In this document: positions 1,323 to 29,679 of the stretch, in pieces
How the letters are laid out: every line of letters begins with the position of its first letter
Numbering within the stretch: the stretch's first letter is position 1
Origin: a virus
Virus record (IMG/VR): IMGVR_UViG_3300022074_000099
Span: 1-43,840 of that record
Length of the DNA: 43,840 bases
Direction: 5' to 3' (one strand)
Position numbers and translations under genes: made by a program
Notes under the pieces: generated by a model
What the model saw: only the letters and a program-made list of their open reading frames with translations
Told to the model about the DNA's origin: nothing
Databases searched by the model: none

Positions 1323-3574
1323 TGGCTGTATTCAAGGCATTCAAACCAGAAGCGATGAACAAAATCGCCAAAGCTATGGGCTACAGTGGCGACATGGGGC
1401 AGTTCCAGAGTTTCATTGAACAAGACCCAATGCGTCAACAGCAGATGCAACGGTACACTAACGCTGCCATGCAGATGGCAAAGGGTGGTGTGGTGAAGAT
1501 GCAGACGGGTGGCATGTTGCCACAGGGAATATCCATCGGCCCCGGTCTTAATTCACCGGGATATTCAACATTTCCCGAAAGTTTTGACAAGCCTAAAAAA
1601 GGCGGGGGCCAATATAGCCCACAAAATGCACCCGGCTATCAAGATTTTTTACAGTCTGATATCTACAAACAAAGGGTCATGGGCGGCGGTGACGGTTTGT
1701 TAGGAGTTGCTGCACCTGCTGTCCTTGACCCGGTACAAGTAGGTGGGCAAACATATAACTTTGCAAATCCTGTAATAGGCGGTGCGTACCGTGAGTACAT
1801 GGCGAGTCGTGGTCCTGCACCAGAGGTGGGGCCAACGCCATCCCTACCGGGTGGACCGGGTACAGGGCCGCTCATACCAGAGCCAAACATACCACCTGCT
1901 GCACAAACAACAGCACCCCCAACAATTAATGAAGCATCTATGCAGCGCATGTATCAGCCCGGTCTGCCTGTTGGCGGTGTAGTGCAAGCTGCGCCTACAG
2001 TCAGTGAGGCAGGTCAGTATGTAACCCCACAGGTTGGAACACTAACAGGCAGCGTAGCTGTGCCGACAGCTATGGCTGGTGTAGCACAGGCTTCTGCTGT
2101 GCAGGAAAAAGCTGCGTCTACAATAGAAGCCGCTCAAGCGGCACCAGCGGTGGGTGCAGCACTTGAAGCTACACAGGCAGCGCAGGGTACTGTAGACCCA
2201 CGTGCGCAGGTCACAGCGGCCCAGCAAACGGCATCCAGTGTAGGCAATCTACAGGCTGCACAGGGTAATGCTATTCTCATTGACAATCCTGTGCAAAGAC
2301 AGATTCAGGACGGTGAACTTATCTCCGGCGCTGCTGCAGATGCGCAGACTGCCGCTAACTTCACAGAACAGATACAAGTCGCAGAAGCAACACCTAGCAC
2401 ACAAGCTACCGTGCAAGGACAGCTTGCTTCACTTACTGCTAATTTTGATGCCGCTAATCCTCCAGCATGGGCTGCAGGTGCTATGCGTAATGCTACAGCA
2501 GCAATGGCTGCGCGTGGTCTTGGTGCATCTAGCCTTGCAGGTCAAGCCATTGTACAAGCCACACTAGAAGCTGCCCTTCCTATTGCTCAAGCTGATGCTG
2601 CTACACGCGCACAGTTTGAATCACAGAACCTTTCTAATCGTCAACAACGTGCTATGCTATCTGCACAACAACGCGCACAGTTTATCGGCCAAGAGTTTGA
2701 CCAAGAGTTTCAAGCCCGTGTCCAGAATGCTGCTAAAATTAGCGATGTAGCTAATATGAACTTTACAGCAGAGCAACAAGTGCAGCTTGAGAATAGCCGC
2801 CTTGCTAACACAATGAACCTAAACAACCTGTCCAACCGTCAGGCTATGGTTATTGCAGAGGCTAGTGCGCTGGCCAACATGGACTTGTCCAACCTCAATA
2901 ACAGGCAGCAAGCTGCTGTACAAAATGCACAGTCTTTCTTGAACATGGATATGACTAACCTGTCTAGCCAACAACAGACAGAGATGTTTAAGGCACAACA
3001 GCGTGTTCAAAGCCTGTTTACTGACCAAGCTGCAAATAATGCTGCACGTCAGTTCAATGCAAGTTCTCAGAATCAGGTTGACCAGTTCTTTGCGGGTCTT
3101 GCCAATCAAACACAACAGTTCAACGCTTCGCAGGTCAATGCACAGGAGCAGTTCAATGCAGGTCAACGTAACACACTTGAGCGTTTCAATGCTGAACTGA
3201 ACAACCAGCGTGACCAGTTCAACGCGCAGAACCAGCTTGTGATTGCGCAGAGCAATGCGCAGTGGCGTCGTGAGATTGCCACCGCAGATACTGCAGCGGT
3301 TAACCGTGCTAACGAACTTAACGCTAATGCAATTCTTGATATTAGCAAGACTGCCTATGACAACCTCTGGAATTACTATGCAGATACTATGGAGTGGGCA
3401 TGGACTTCTGCCGAAAACGAAATGAACCGTATTGCAGATATGGCTATCGCTACTCTTAATGCAGATGAACGTGCTAAAATCGCAGAAGAGCAAAGTAATA
3501 CTGCCGCCGGAACTGCTCTTGGTAGCCTTGTAGGAACACTTGGCAGTGCGTTTATCGGCGCTAAATTTGGGTGA
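1322..3574 (+). CDS. large Ala/Gln/Asn-rich virion protein
   Basis: A 750-residue protein. Residues 1-60 form a helical head, then a Gly/Pro-rich linker with glycine-rich motifs (AKGGVVKMQTGG). The middle is Ala/Gln-rich (residues about 210-330). The C-terminal half is a long helical stretch with imperfect repeats of the type NLSNRQ, QFNASQ and QFNAGQ (about residues 430-640), followed by a small hydrophobic glycine-rich end (GTALGSLVGTLGSAFIGAKF). I know this architecture from uncharacterised structural proteins of cyanophages and pelagiphages. It probably forms part of the tail or an internal ejected complex. Function is inferred from position and composition. Confidence 0.6.
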   Translation: MAVFKAFKPEAMNKIAKAMGYSGDMGQFQSFIEQDPMRQQQMQRYTNAAMQMAKGGVVKMQTGGMLPQGISIGPGLNSPGYSTFPESFDKPKKGGGQYSPQNAPGYQDFLQSDIYKQRVMGGGDGLLGVAAPAVLDPVQVGGQTYNFANPVIGGAYREYMASRGPAPEVGPTPSLPGGPGTGPLIPEPNIPPAAQTTAPPTINEASMQRMYQPGLPVGGVVQAAPTVSEAGQYVTPQVGTLTGSVAVPTAMAGVAQASAVQEKAASTIEAAQAAPAVGAALEATQAAQGTVDPRAQVTAAQQTASSVGNLQAAQGNAILIDNPVQRQIQDGELISGAAADAQTAANFTEQIQVAEATPSTQATVQGQLASLTANFDAANPPAWAAGAMRNATAAMAARGLGASSLAGQAIVQATLEAALPIAQADAATRAQFESQNLSNRQQRAMLSAQQRAQFIGQEFDQEFQARVQNAAKISDVANMNFTAEQQVQLENSRLANTMNLNNLSNRQAMVIAEASALANMDLSNLNNRQQAAVQNAQSFLNMDMTNLSSQQQTEMFKAQQRVQSLFTDQAANNAARQFNASSQNQVDQFFAGLANQTQQFNASQVNAQEQFNAGQRNTLERFNAELNNQRDQFNAQNQLVIAQSNAQWRREIATADTAAVNRANELNANAILDISKTAYDNLWNYYADTMEWAWTSAENEMNRIADMAIATLNADERAKIAEEQSNTAAGTALGSLVGTLGSAFIGAKFG

Positions 3575-3582
3575 TAATAAAC

Positions 3583-3792
3583 ATGTTTAATAATCCAGCC
3601 AGACAACTTTATCTTAATATGGACATTGATAAATTGCAGGAAGAGAAAGAAGTGCCTACCTCTGGTCTTCTTGCTCCCCGTAAAAATATGTCTAATATGA
3701 GTGACGATACGGTAAAGCAGCCAGCCTTTCGTGTCGCGCAACATATGAAAACGCTTCGCAAGCAACGAGAGATGTTGAAAAATGGCGATTGA
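3583..3792 (+). CDS. small hypothetical protein
   Basis: 69 residues from the ATG at 3583; an alternative GTG at 3571 overlaps the previous stop. Basic and acidic residues are mixed, with a helical C-terminus (RVAQHMKTLRKQREMLKNGD). It overlaps the next gene by 11 bases in another frame. No family recognised. Its place between virion genes suggests a minor structural or assembly role. Confidence 0.55.
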   Translation: MFNNPARQLYLNMDIDKLQEEKEVPTSGLLAPRKNMSNMSDDTVKQPAFRVAQHMKTLRKQREMLKNGD

Positions 3793-23850: not shown

Positions 23851-24360
23851 TCATTCTCCTTTCATCCAGTAAGGCATCTCTCTGCCGCCTTTGTCCCATC
23901 GGGCAAACGCAGCCTTGTCCACTTTGTAGAAGGCACGGTACGCCTCAATCGGCCATGCCTCTTCGGTCTTGCAGTCGTCGTGTCCGCTGAAGCATTGCGG
24001 GTGCGGCGTTAAGCCACCAGCAAGCGACCACGGCATGAACTGTCGGCAGTTGAGCAATACTTCCCTATGCTTAGATGCACCATGCACTTTGCCATATCTA
24101 TGGGTGTACTCCTTCAACATTGCGTCGTACAACTGCCAAGCAAATGTGTAGTTAGAGCGATTGCGCATAGCCCACAGGGTACACGGATGCTTCTGATGCA
24201 CAGGTTTATACAGCCCATACTTCTCCGCTATCTCAGGCCGATGATGCCACACGCTAGTGCATAGCATCTGCGCTTCCTCCAACGGCATCTTGACAATGTG
24301 CTTGTCGCACAATGACTTAGCGATAGCATCAGGGTGATGCTCAATAAGAAACCTATTCAT
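23851..24360 (-). CDS. conserved phage protein (DKHIVKM family), possibly nucleic-acid enzyme
   Basis: 169 residues from the ATG at 24360. The sequence CDKHIVKMPLEEAQMLCTSV, then HPCTLWAMRNRSNYTFAWQL and YTHRYGKVHGASKH, is a well-conserved phage family I remember as sometimes labelled pyrimidine-dimer glycosylase-like without proof. Invariant His, Lys, Asp, Glu and Arg residues suggest an enzyme. The longer frame to 24489 lacks a ribosome site and overlaps the upstream gene fully. Function not assigned. Confidence 0.6.
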   Translation of the reverse strand: MNRFLIEHHPDAIAKSLCDKHIVKMPLEEAQMLCTSVWHHRPEIAEKYGLYKPVHQKHPCTLWAMRNRSNYTFAWQLYDAMLKEYTHRYGKVHGASKHREVLLNCRQFMPWSLAGGLTPHPQCFSGHDDCKTEEAWPIEAYRAFYKVDKAAFARWDKGGREMPYWMKGE

Positions 24361-24509
24361 CAGCAGTATATCCTTTCCATGATTCCGTTGAAGGCATGGA
24401 ACAAAATCCAGCCAATACATGCAAGACATGCTGCACGTATCACATTGTCCATGAATGGGTCTTTGGCTGGGTCTGTCTCCATCCAGCATGTGAGGATTGT
24501 CTTAATCAT
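24360..24509 (-). CDS. 49-residue membrane protein
   Basis: From the ATG at 24509 the peptide MIKTILTCWMETDPAKDPF is followed by one hydrophobic segment (VIRAACLACIGWILFHAF, about residues 22-39) and a short basic end. The start overlaps the upstream gene by 8 bases and the stop meets the next ATG. Cys-rich single-pass; function unknown. Confidence 0.5.
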   Translation of the reverse strand: MIKTILTCWMETDPAKDPFMDNVIRAACLACIGWILFHAFNGIMERIYC

Positions 24510-27737: not shown

Positions 27738-27932
27738 CTAATCGGAAAGCCATTCATTGATGGTCACAATAATGCCGATGCAAATTGCGCTGGCACCGAT
27801 TACCGCCCAGAAGGAGATTTTATCTCCGGTGTGCAAGTAATCAAGAAACGACCAGAAGCCGACGATAGCCGCCATGTAAAACATGATGACGTTGCGAATT
27901 GCTTTCAGCAATGAAAAAGAAGGATGGTTCAT
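27738..27932 (-). CDS. 64-residue two-helix membrane protein
   Basis: From the ATG at 27932: MNHPSFSLLKAIRNVIMFYM opens a first hydrophobic segment (about 13-32), and KISFWAVIGASAICIGIIVT forms the second (about 38-58), ending NEWLSD. The leader has the 16-base palindrome (27951-27966) and ACGGAG. Three triloop hairpins lie within the gene (27813, 27873, 27898). Holin-like topology is possible, but there is no lysis context. Confidence 0.6.
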   Translation of the reverse strand: MNHPSFSLLKAIRNVIMFYMAAIVGFWSFLDYLHTGDKISFWAVIGASAICIGIIVTINEWLSD

Positions 27933-27950
27933 TTCAAACTCCGTTTGCTT

Positions 27951-27966
27951 GGTCCGCTGTCGGACT
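27951..27966. repeat. 16-base palindromic repeat, copy 3 (last base changed)
   Basis: GGTCCG-CTGT-CGGACT. It overlaps the stop codon of the upstream gene (27965-27967) and lies in the leader of the gene at 27932, followed on the minus strand by AAGCAAACGGAG. Confidence 0.85.
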
Positions 27967-28183
27967 AGTCGGCGTCGGCAATCATCTTGTCGAGCAGCGC
28001 CATTGCTTGCGCATCCTCGTATGCCTGCTGCATGTTGGCCTGTTGGCCGGTGACATAGCACCGAAACTCTGGACGAGTTTCTGGCTCATAGGAGCGGCTG
28101 TAGCCTGCAGTGTCCACACTGCGCCACGATGAGCCTAAAGGCTTGTGCCTTCCCAAATCTACGATTTGACCACGCTTACTCAT
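27965..28183 (-). CDS. 72-residue hypothetical protein
   Basis: From the ATG at 28183 with GGAG 8-11 bases upstream: MSKRGQIVDLGRHKPLGSSW, then a Tyr/Arg-rich middle and a helical acidic C-terminus (YEDAQAMALLDKMIADAD). The start overlaps the upstream membrane gene by 8 bases. Several small hairpins lie within the gene. No family recognised. Confidence 0.55.
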   Translation of the reverse strand: MSKRGQIVDLGRHKPLGSSWRSVDTAGYSRSYEPETRPEFRCYVTGQQANMQQAYEDAQAMALLDKMIADAD

Positions 28184-28349
28184 CTGCAAACTCCATTGCT
28201 ATAGCAATCCAACCACCGGCAAAGCAAGCTCCACAGGTGAACAAAATCATGCCCATAAATGGCGTGCCATTTTGCATAAGGTCGATGAAAGCAAAACAGC
28301 CAACCACCGCTGCTGAAAGCAGCATGAAAAAACAACCGATGATATACAT
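28176..28349 (-). CDS. 57-residue two-helix membrane protein
   Basis: Read by hand: the ATG at 28349 gives MYIIGCFFMLLSAAVVGCFA (first membrane helix), a short loop IDLMQNGTPF, then MGMILFTCGACFAGGWIAIA (second helix) and MEFADE, stop at 28176-28178. Four Cys in the membrane part. GGAGG lies 7-11 bases upstream. Small double-pass proteins like this are common early phage genes; function unknown. Confidence 0.6.
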   Translation of the reverse strand: MYIIGCFFMLLSAAVVGCFAFIDLMQNGTPFMGMILFTCGACFAGGWIAIAMEFADE

Positions 28350-28372
28350 ATCATAACCTCCAGAAAGGGAGA

Positions 28373-28986
28373 CAGCCGTTAGGCTGCCTCTTGATTGAGA
28401 AGTGACTGCTGCTCTTTCAGAGCAAGCAGCAAGTCTTTGAAAGTGATGCCGTTGGCATCAGCCCGAAGCATTGCCTCAAAGGCAATCTCTTCAGCCGACA
28501 TTGGAGCCAACTTGTTGGCAACAACAGTCTCTGACTGTGTTTCACCTTCGGTGCTTGGTCCGCTGTCGGACTTGTTGTCACCTTCGGTGTCACCACCTTC
28601 GGTGTCTGTAGCCTTCGGCTTCTGCAGCTTCGCTACCTCTGAAAGCAAGGCTTTCATAGAAGCAAACTTGCCAAGCAAATCGTTTTCAACGATGAAGTCA
28701 AAGTTCTGAAAGAACTTCAAAGCCTCTTGCCGACGTTGCTTTGCAACGGTATGAAGATTGGCATCTTTCAGCAAAGCTGAATCCATCCGAAGGCCACCAG
28801 ATTCTTGCAGAATCTCAGCCAGCAGTTCACCAAGGGTGAACCAGAAACCGTCTCTGACGGTCAGCGACTTGAACTTCGACTTGTCAGCTTTGACAAGTGA
28901 CTTGTCCCAACGGGACAGCACTAAGCCTTTGGCTTGAACAGTGTTGTTGGCTTCAGCAAGCTGAGTGGCGAAGGACTTCTTGGAAG
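28373..28986. repeat. hairpin-tiled coding region: about 25 consecutive stem-loops
   Basis: Perfect inverted repeats (start-end, stem, loop): 28373-28386 (5, GTTA), 28410-28424 (6, TTC), 28444-28460 (7, GTT), 28470-28486 (7, CAA), 28506-28519 (6, TT), 28524-28538 (6, TCT), 28543-28553 (4, TTC), 28558-28571 (5, CTGT), 28579-28589 (4, TTC), 28594-28604 (4, TTC), 28610-28620 (4, TTC), 28626-28634 (3, TTC), 28640-28656 (7, AAG), 28679-28693 (6, TTC), 28701-28717 (7, GAA), 28734-28748 (6, TTT), 28767-28781 (6, AAA), 28799-28815 (7, TGC), 28825-28841 (7, AAG), 28847-28861 (6, TCT), 28879-28898 (8, GCTT), 28903-28917 (6, AAC), 28923-28935 (5, TTT), 28953-28964 (4, CAAG), 28976-28986 (4, TTG). Nearly all have 3-base loops. 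Confidence 0.9.
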
Positions 28987-28999
28987 GTTGCTGTTGCAT
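28379..28999 (-). CDS. hairpin-encoded protein of unknown function
   Basis: 206 residues. AGGAG lies 6 bases before the ATG at 28999, so it is a real gene. N-terminus basic/polar (MQQQPSKKSFATQLAEANNT), helical middle (FTLGELLAEILQESGGLRMD; ALKFFQNFDFIVENDLLGKF), an acidic Gly/Ser/Thr linker at about 137-160 (ATDTEGGDTEGDNKSDSGPS), and a C-terminal helical pair (LAPMSAEEIAFEAMLRADAN; FKDLLLALKEQQ). No domain recognised. What is exceptional is the DNA: the reading frame is tiled by stem-loops with triloops, one palindromic repeat encodes SDSGPS, and the leader folds into element C, which reaches the Shine-Dalgarno. It is the first gene of the minus-strand block. It could be a replication-initiation, RNA-binding or autoregulated protein, but this is not known. 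Confidence 0.75.
   Translation of the reverse strand: MQQQPSKKSFATQLAEANNTVQAKGLVLSRWDKSLVKADKSKFKSLTVRDGFWFTLGELLAEILQESGGLRMDSALLKDANLHTVAKQRRQEALKFFQNFDFIVENDLLGKFASMKALLSEVAKLQKPKATDTEGGDTEGDNKSDSGPSTEGETQSETVVANKLAPMSAEEIAFEAMLRADANGITFKDLLLALKEQQSLLNQEAA
28557..28572. repeat. 16-base palindromic repeat, copy 4, inside a coding sequence
   Basis: GGTCCG-CTGT-CGGACT within the gene at 28379-28999, where the minus-strand reading encodes part of SDSGPS in the disordered linker. Flanked by the same CTT as copies 1-3. Confidence 0.85.
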
Positions 29000-29008
29000 C
29001 CTTATCTC

Positions 29009-29084
29009 CTATTTGTAGGTTTCTAAGGGATTATCCCCTTTCACTAAAGTTCAAGGGGTAATCCCGTGAAACCGTAACAAATAG
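29009..29084 (-). ncRNA. structured covarying leader element, copy C
   Basis: Plus-strand reading: CTATTTGT (29009-29016) pairs with ACAAATAG (29077-29084); GGTTTC (29018-29023) with GAAACC (29068-29073); internal loop TAA / GT; GGGATTA (29027-29033) with TAATCCC (29059-29065); bulged T; CCCCTT (29035-29040) with AAGGGG (29053-29058); loop TCACTAAAGTTC. Longest of the three copies. The outermost two base pairs include the first two bases of the AGGAG of the downstream gene (29010-29006), so folding could influence ribosome access. Confidence 0.75.
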
Positions 29085-29119
29085 AGAGATAGTTTTGGTG
29101 AGGTCAAAATGCCAAATCA

Positions 29120-29534
29120 AAATCGAAGATTTACCTCTGCGCAGGTCGTTCCGCATGGTTGCAGGAAAAACAAGTTTTTCCGAAACTCAGCGTGAGAACA
29201 TCGTGAGCGGAAGGCCGCAGTGAGGTGTTGCAAAAATGCAACAGCCTTGCTGTTGAGGGGGTGTAGTGTTGCAGCAAAACCACACCGATAGGTGGTGCTA
29301 GTTTGATGCATCGGCACTGCAACTTGTTGCAGAATTGTCACATCGCTGCTTCACGACATGCTGAAAGCATGGCAACTGATGCCATAACAGTTGGTAACAA
29401 CTGGCTGCTGACAGAACTATTTAGCATTTTCAATGCTTTAGGTCCGCTGTCGGACCAAGGCTGTTGGCAGCGGCTCCCTACAGCGCGTCATCTGACCGCA
29501 TTATGCCTGCGCACACGCAGGGTAGGCCGGGGCC
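29120..29534. repeat. non-coding hairpin array upstream of the hairpin-tiled gene
   Basis: No convincing gene lies in 29000-29809. Hairpins: 29120-29132 (5, GAA), 29164-29181 (8, AA), 29186-29196 (4, GCG), 29207-29218 (4, AAGG), 29226-29243 (7, AAAA), 29239-29255 (7, CTT; overlaps the last, so alternatives), 29283-29294 (4, GATA), 29317-29332 (7, TT), 29357-29371 (6, GAA), 29369-29385 (6, ACTGA), 29388-29403 (6, GTAA), 29423-29437 (6, TTC), 29441-29456 (the 16-base repeat), 29460-29471 (4, TTGG), 29506-29521 (6, CACA), 29525-29534 (4, GG). From 29535 to 29640 only one weak repeat (29574-29588) is seen. Confidence 0.85.
29441..29456. repeat. 16-base palindromic repeat, copy 5, non-coding
   Basis: Perfect GGTCCG-CTGT-CGGACC in the divergent intergenic region, flanked by CCAAGG on its right side rather than CCTTGG on its left as in copy 1. 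It is not adjacent to a start codon. Confidence 0.9.
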
Positions 29535-29650
29535 ACCGGGGGGGTGTAGCGTAGTATATACACACAGATACACAGATTAGGAAAATCTAGTGTTAACCAC
29601 AAGTGCAACTGACGCTAAAATAAAAATGAGCATCCGATAAATTATTGTAC

Positions 29651-29679
29651 TTGACAGGTGTTTCACATTCTGGTATAAT
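29651..29679 (+). promoter_or_regulatory. consensus sigma-70 promoter for the rightward late genes
   Basis: TTGACA (29651-29656), exactly 17 bases, TATAAT (29674-29679), plus an extended -10 TG at 29671-29672. A perfect match to the housekeeping consensus, so host RNA polymerase should start near 29686, about 10 bases before a long stem-loop leader. Confidence 0.9.

Follow-up and report, generated by a model that had tools for sequence, protein, structure and literature searches.

Can one stretch of phage DNA encode a protein and, in the same bases, a string of small hairpins, and, if so, is the second message selected, how far does it reach, and what might read it? These questions are raised by a gene on an IMG/VR virus contig of 43,840 bases, the whole of which was analysed and is referred to here as the window. 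The contig belongs to an HMO-2011-like marine podovirus: its portal and terminase region is 78% identical in DNA sequence to Puniceispirillum phage HMO-2011, and its DNA polymerase is 77% identical in protein sequence to that of HMO-2011. The abstract of PMC9038755 describes phages of this type as dominant in the ocean and widespread there. The group encodes a DNA polymerase, a helicase, a terminase and a ribonucleotide reductase and therefore has a DNA genome; the genomes that carry the hairpin array measure 44-55 kb.

The gene is a homologue of HMO-2011 gp74 (54% identity by tblastn), assigned to the gp74 family by homology over its conserved N-terminal domain (G25, L28, G51-F52, L56-G57, R89-R90-x-E92 and F96). 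In HMO-2011, CRP-345 and CRP-1, gp74 is the first gene of the rightward early operon and adjoins a divergent intergenic region; the window gene holds the same position. The homologues (gp74 of HMO-2011, gp01 of CRP-1 and CRP-345) are annotated as hypothetical proteins only. Another early gene of the window (23851-24489, minus) has a weak match, barely above the cut-off, to the Pfam family Pyr_excise (pyrimidine dimer DNA glycosylase). The first-pass annotation, which had placed the gene at 28373-28986, was right about the gene and about ten bases off in its coordinates. The open reading frame and its hairpins are as follows.

28379..28999, minus: hairpin-tiled gene, homologue of HMO-2011 gp74; 621 nt, 206 aa, ATG start, AGGAG upstream
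28410..28424, minus: hairpin TGCTCT-gaa-AGAGCA
28444..28460, minus: hairpin TGATGCC-aac-GGCATCA
28470..28486, minus: hairpin ATTGCCT-ttg-AGGCAAT
28506..28519, minus: hairpin GCCAA-caag-TTGGC
28524..28538, minus: hairpin ACAGTC-aga-GACTGT
28558..28571, minus: hairpin GTCCG-acag-CGGAC; recurs in the leader and downstream
28640..28656, minus: hairpin TGAAAGC-ctt-GCTTTCA
28679..28693, minus: hairpin ATCGTT-gaa-AACGAT; HMO-2011 and others have GTTATC-gaa-GATAAC nearby instead
28701..28717, minus: hairpin AAGTTCT-ttc-AGAACTT; AAGTTTG-tta-CAAACTT in relative L011 (paired changes)
28734..28748, minus: hairpin CGTTGC-aaa-GCAACG
28767..28781, minus: hairpin TTCAGC-ttt-GCTGAA
28799..28815, minus: hairpin AGATTCT-gca-AGAATCT
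28825..28841, minus: hairpin GTTCACC-ctt-GGTGAAC; GTTTACC..GGTAAAC or TTCTCC..GGAGAA in relatives (paired changes)
28847..28861, minus: hairpin ACCGTC-aga-GACGGT
28879..28898, minus: hairpin ACTTGTCA-aagc-TGACAAGT, 8 bp; overlaps an alternative 6-bp hairpin at 28892-28906
28903..28917, minus: hairpin TGTCCC-gtt-GGGACA; TTATCCC-aat-GGGATAA in HMO-2011 (paired changes)
28923..28935, minus: hairpin AAGCC-aaa-GGCTT

Perfect stems of at least 6 bp with a 3-base loop number 14 in the gene, as against 37 in the entire 43.8-kb window. Codon-shuffled versions of the gene, which keep both the protein and the codon use, contain on average 1.22 such stems and at most 7, and none of 2000 reaches 14. This control had been named beforehand as one that could refute the design, and the shuffles come nowhere near the observed count; the excess beyond chance thus stands, despite an initial chance expectation of 0.15 that was too low when set against the shuffles. 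Placement without overlap leaves exactly 13 hairpins of 6-7 bp with 3-base loops, the number originally reported. With perfect stems of at least 5 bp and loops of 3-6 bases, 17 non-overlapping hairpins account for 34.5% of the gene bases, and the approximately 25 inverted repeats also reported are reached only if 4-bp stems are counted. The stems within the gene all differ in sequence, apart from the recurring GTCCG-ACAG-CGGAC. This hairpin, as (G)GTCCG-ACAG-CGGAC(C), is found in the window at 27951-27966, 28558-28571 and 29441-29456 and in L002 at 5458, 6102, 6758 and 7490; several genomes repeat it inside the array and in its surroundings, unlike the other stems, which all differ.

The same design runs through the gene family. 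Relatives were gathered from IMG/VR stepwise (three close ones, ten with an alignment, the CRP-1/CRP-345 branch and then intermediates), and the resulting sample comprises 102 distinct gp74 genes, down to about 20% protein identity. Profile comparison shows the homology of the CRP-1/CRP-345 branch: aligned with hhalign, clades A and B match with 97% probability and E 4e-11. All 102 members are hairpin-rich, and 99 of them exceed every codon shuffle, the three remaining genes being reached by 5 of 300 shuffles (L075) or by 1 of 200 each (L127 and L148). Homologues with the same protein and no hairpins, the other refuting observation proposed at the outset, do not occur in the family: no member lacks hairpins. 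The extreme member is L126 (IMGVR_UViG_3300030104_000540, 3001-3624), with 21 hairpins, whose stems reach 10 bp and take up 48% of the gene. A search of 84,980 bacterial and archaeal genomes found no relatives of gp74.

Aligned genes indicate what is being conserved. In some places the position of a hairpin is kept while its letters are swapped in pairs, as in the change from TGTCCC/GGGACA to TTATCCC/GGGATAA, or from GTTCACC/GGTGAAC to GTTTACC/GGTAAAC or TTCTCC/GGAGAA across relatives; elsewhere a new hairpin substitutes for an old one a few bases away (ATCGTT..AACGAT versus GTTATC..GATAAC). Among gene pairs that are at least 90% identical, double changes in stem pairs remain Watson-Crick in 22 cases versus 2 in which they do not. 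At four-fold sites, divergence is 0.030 in stems versus 0.115 in spacers for genes of 90-95% identity, and 0.022 versus 0.068 for those above 95%. Two comparisons of the first 390 nt, the conserved N-terminal part of gp74, among the nearest relatives only, give 0.037 in stems versus 0.116 in spacers (p 5e-5) and 0.179 versus 0.342 (p 2e-9). The rate of change at four-fold synonymous sites is thus 2-4 times lower in stems than in spacers, which is the work of selection and not of composition. These sequence patterns speak for pairing being under purifying selection and against mutation as the sole source of the hairpins. The early description of a coding gene with a hairpin design not due to chance is borne out by the codon shuffles, the paired changes and the slowed synonymous change in stems, and the array is, in our opinion, almost certainly real and selected.

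The hairpins share a recognizable anatomy. Both in the genes and in the leader, enrichment is 3- to 9-fold for stems of 6-7 bp and a bare 1.1- to 1.5-fold for 5-bp stems, and stems of at least 9 bp are almost absent; loops of 3 and 4 nt are enriched and loops of 6 are not. Only uninterrupted stems are enriched in the gp74 family, and hairpins follow one another at intervals of about 30 nt, their centre-to-centre spacing peaking at 24-35 nt. Stem size varies between clades, reaching 10 bp in L126 and standing at 5 bp in the L146 group. A strict window of 6-7 bp thus applies to the majority of clades and fails as a universal rule; because this limit varies, a loop of 3-4 is the more general feature. 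Closing pairs run from a 5'-pyrimidine to a purine-3' and are mostly C-G (0.49 versus 0.32). Triloops read on the sense strand favour GNA over TNC by 50:10 in genes, where codon shuffles give approximately 2:1, and by 26:11 in the non-coding leader. This loop preference, drawn from related sequences that are not independent, points to the sense strand as the strand that folds.

The design was at first thought to be confined to one gene. The gene's own hairpins hold up; the confinement does not, for the leader is also covered, as are the next genes with fading density. Each genome has a single peak of hairpin density, located at 27.5-29.5 kb in the window and extending from 53.5 kb to beyond the record start in HMO-2011, and the array occupies one region of 2-3 kb. 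In the family average, density climbs steeply at about 450 nt upstream of the gene, reaches its maximum within it and then tails off across about 2.5 kb of early-operon genes downstream, which are not the same in all phages; on the divergent side of the array it stays at background. The flanking features in the window are these.

29000..29460, minus: untranslated leader, hairpin-rich, array onset; perfect units at 29239-29255, 29357-29371, 29423-29437 and 29441-29456
27800..28378, minus: downstream early operon, falling hairpin density; units at 27813-27827, 27898-27912, 28154-28168 and 28309-28323
29570..29622, minus: conserved block CAGTTGC..TGTGGTTAACA..ATTT.CCTAATCTGTGT just outside the array, a candidate promoter/operator or origin element

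The onset of the array lies just inside this conserved block. Slow translation alone, one of the meanings initially suggested, does not fit, since the leader, which is not translated, is strongly enriched in hairpins as well.

Several other elements are found around the array. CAGTTGC boxes stand on one strand at its onset, at 53512, 53545, 53752 and 53777 in HMO-2011 (NC_021864), that is, four in 270 bp, and at 29372 and 29605 (minus) in the window; clustered in this way, they are possibly an operator or iterons. At 29651-29679 (plus), a perfect promoter sequence TTGACA-17-TATAAT, matching at 12 of 12 positions and with TG before the second hexamer, points away from the array, towards the opposite arm, and is conserved in close relatives. 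The leader holds two overlapping, mutually exclusive hairpins in an attenuator-like arrangement (window 29233-29255, minus; L001:365-394), the alternatives in L001 being CAACATC-TTT-GATGTTG and TGTTGCA-TTTT-TGCAACA, with the same layout in the window. A large imperfect hairpin, GGGATTACCCCTTGAACTTTAGTGAAAGGGGATAATCCC, lies just upstream of the gp74 ribosome site (window 29027-29066, minus) and is conserved in most close relatives. Across the family, within the 700 nt downstream of gp74, a GGA resembling a Shine-Dalgarno sequence often forms the triloop of a hairpin that precedes a downstream gene (14 distinct hairpins).

Phages with and without gp74 were compared by the number of exact units (stem of 6-7 bp, loop of 3-4) in their densest kilobase. 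Carriers of gp74 score 18 (the window), 14 (HMO-2011), 11 (CRP-1) and 7 (CRP-345); phages without it in the DNA examined score 3 (CRP-207), 2 (CRP-2), 3 (CRP-3) and 4 (HTVC033P), and the comparison phages T7 and HTVC010P score 3 and 6. Typical phage DNA contains 0.3-1 exact units per kb. Neither a gp74 homologue nor the array is present in the whole genome of CRP-207 or at the genome ends of CRP-2, CRP-3 and HTVC033P. In this sample, a small one with only four relatives that lack gp74, two of them closely related, gene and array go together.

The protein itself offers few clues. An AlphaFold2 model built with 39 family members (mean pLDDT 78, pTM 0.57) consists entirely of helices, with a disordered linker at 131-163. 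Searches of gp74 against Pfam, PHROG and PDB sequences gave nothing credible, and fold searches with the model gave no trustworthy PDB match and no recognizable nucleic-acid-binding fold. The sole strong match among viral models, S4S2E1 (205 aa, 50% identical), is probably the HMO-2011 protein itself.

Whether the hairpins act in RNA or in DNA was approached through pairing rules and folding energies. G-U pairs are not favoured: their frequency among outer pairs is 0.175 versus 0.162 expected, and interrupted stems comprise 12 G-U versus 13 A-C loci. An apparent excess of A-C over G-U (50 versus 23) was set aside, as a single alignment column supplies most of it, with 30 instances, and it is gone when loci are counted. 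Interrupted stems are enriched 0.54-fold (G-U), 0.81-fold (A-C) and 1.02-fold (other) in the gp74 family, versus 2.2- to 3.4-fold in single-stranded RNA phages. The latter likewise lack a G-U preference in this test; for this reason, the wobble test is not used as proof of DNA. At a pairing span of 30, folding z-scores are -5.0 with RNA parameters, -5.7 with RNA parameters without G-U and -5.6 with DNA parameters on both strands, so RNA parameters do no better than DNA and the strands are similar; these scores are only suggestive, since the MS2 control separates RNA from DNA only at a span of 100 and not at the span of 30 used for the gp74 set. The direction of the array, its onset at the early operon and its sense-strand loops favour the transcript. 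Strict Watson-Crick pairing, together with the analogy to the extruded hairpins of phage N4, keeps DNA in play.

Our preferred, still tentative, reading is that the hairpin array of the nascent early RNA is a platform for gp74. The early (sense) strand would fold into a string of small hairpins when single-stranded, most likely as the nascent early transcript; hairpins that form quickly would deny R-loop formation, Rho loading and nucleases any long stretch free of structure, and would act as a platform for gp74, the protein made from the same transcript. With the same reserve, the array may be regarded as a new kind of cis-element, consisting of dozens of uniform, sequence-independent mini-hairpins that are recognized by shape by a protein encoded inside the array, so that gene and platform are one and co-evolve. 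A somewhat less probable, yet serious, alternative places the array in DNA, beside a replication origin near the early promoters, where hairpins in single-stranded or supercoiled phage DNA (on the displaced strand of an R-loop or D-loop, or as extruded mini-cruciforms) would be loading or organizing sites for gp74, a helicase or a primase. The stems do not tolerate G-U, folding scores with DNA parameters, or with RNA parameters from which G-U is removed, are no worse than those of RNA with G-U allowed, pyrimidine-purine closing pairs are enriched, and the unit size is that of N4 DNA promoter hairpins, which are extruded in vivo (PMC4496689); the CAGTTGC boxes repeated where the array begins, of which HMO-2011 has four within 270 bp, and a minimum of cumulative GC skew inside the gene, in both HMO-2011 and the window, would also suit an origin. 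However, gene orientation switches at that very minimum, and the minimum of CRP-207, which has no array, falls at the same border; moreover, the orientation and decay of the array follow the transcription unit.

General shielding of an early mRNA made in abundance, be it from RNase E, from Rho or from host RNA sensors, and independent of gp74, would explain why hairpin density tracks the distance from the promoter region and spans unrelated downstream genes, and would agree with the sense-strand loop preference. We consider it unlikely, however, given that relatives without gp74 and with the same early-operon layout have no array and that only uninterrupted stems are enriched, unlike in the RNA of single-stranded RNA phages. 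Template switching between arms near an origin (quasi-palindrome correction), leaving hairpins as a mutational by-product without selection, could produce perfect uninterrupted stems and clustered paired changes; but arm-to-arm copying alone would not slow synonymous change in stems, nor does it sit well with the narrow loop size, and we regard it as quite improbable. That the hairpins arose by chance, through codon bias or as copies of a mobile palindrome has next to no likelihood: GTCCG-ACAG-CGGAC does recur around the region, yet the codon shuffles refute such an origin and the other stems in one gene are all different. The meanings proposed in the first-pass annotation beyond slow translation, namely an mRNA folded for nuclease resistance, hairpins in single-stranded DNA and a decoy for host structure-binding proteins, are not separated by the tests run; a decoy of this kind, or nuclease resistance, is possible.

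Of known systems, the early promoters of phage N4 come closest in form. The hairpins recognized by the N4 virion RNA polymerase have 3-base loops on stems no longer than 7 bp and extrude in vivo (PMC4496689). In both systems, the early region of a double-stranded DNA podovirus carries short hairpins whose loops have 3 bases, and C-G closing pairs and GNA loops are enriched in the gp74 array too. However, the N4 promoters are few, share conserved bases and need a C(GNA)G loop, whereas the gp74 array comprises dozens of differing hairpins that tile genes, most of them without C(GNA)G; on the sense strand, this loop is found in 9 of 304 hairpins with stems of at least 6 bp, and N4-like promoters are rejected as the identity of the array on this count. 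In the large window proteins examined, which have no Pfam or PHROG match, no RNA polymerase was recognized. Intrinsic terminators are also rejected, terminator-like sites numbering 7 in 3.7 kb versus 3.7 expected and the gene hairpins not being among them, except for one at the gene end. Arrays of CRISPR, REP or attC repeats do not correspond either, as the stems differ in sequence and only short direct repeats are present, in the linker. An Rfam search returned chance matches only.

Single-stranded RNA phages such as MS2 and Qbeta resemble the gp74 phages in that selection for pairing shapes coding sequence. Their structure is genome-wide, however, and their interrupted stems are enriched as much as perfect ones, whereas the gp74 array consists of uniform, uninterrupted mini-hairpins confined to one 2-3 kb region of a DNA genome. 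Integron attC sites, single-stranded DNA promoters and primosome assembly sites share with it a possible use of hairpins in single-stranded DNA. Each of these is one site, or a few sites, of defined architecture; the gp74 array, in contrast, is long and varied in sequence. Its closest counterparts are its own homologues: gp74 of HMO-2011 and gp01 of CRP-1 and CRP-345 are homologous first early genes with the same array, which is absent from their annotations. The HMO-2011-type genome paper, searched by terms, gives no mention of it, and a literature search of incomplete coverage found no description of a phage or cellular system with such a design.

The nearest known kinds of element each fail to match the array in features that define them. 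The same bases encode a protein and a selected string of hairpins, a double message to which statistics and evolution across about 100 genomes testify, and this points to an undescribed nucleic-acid function layered over the protein code. Whatever reads the hairpins, in RNA or in DNA, be it gp74 or a host factor, would be a new handle on phage takeover or replication. The array also provides a clean test case for selection on the shape of a nucleic acid with little dependence on its sequence.
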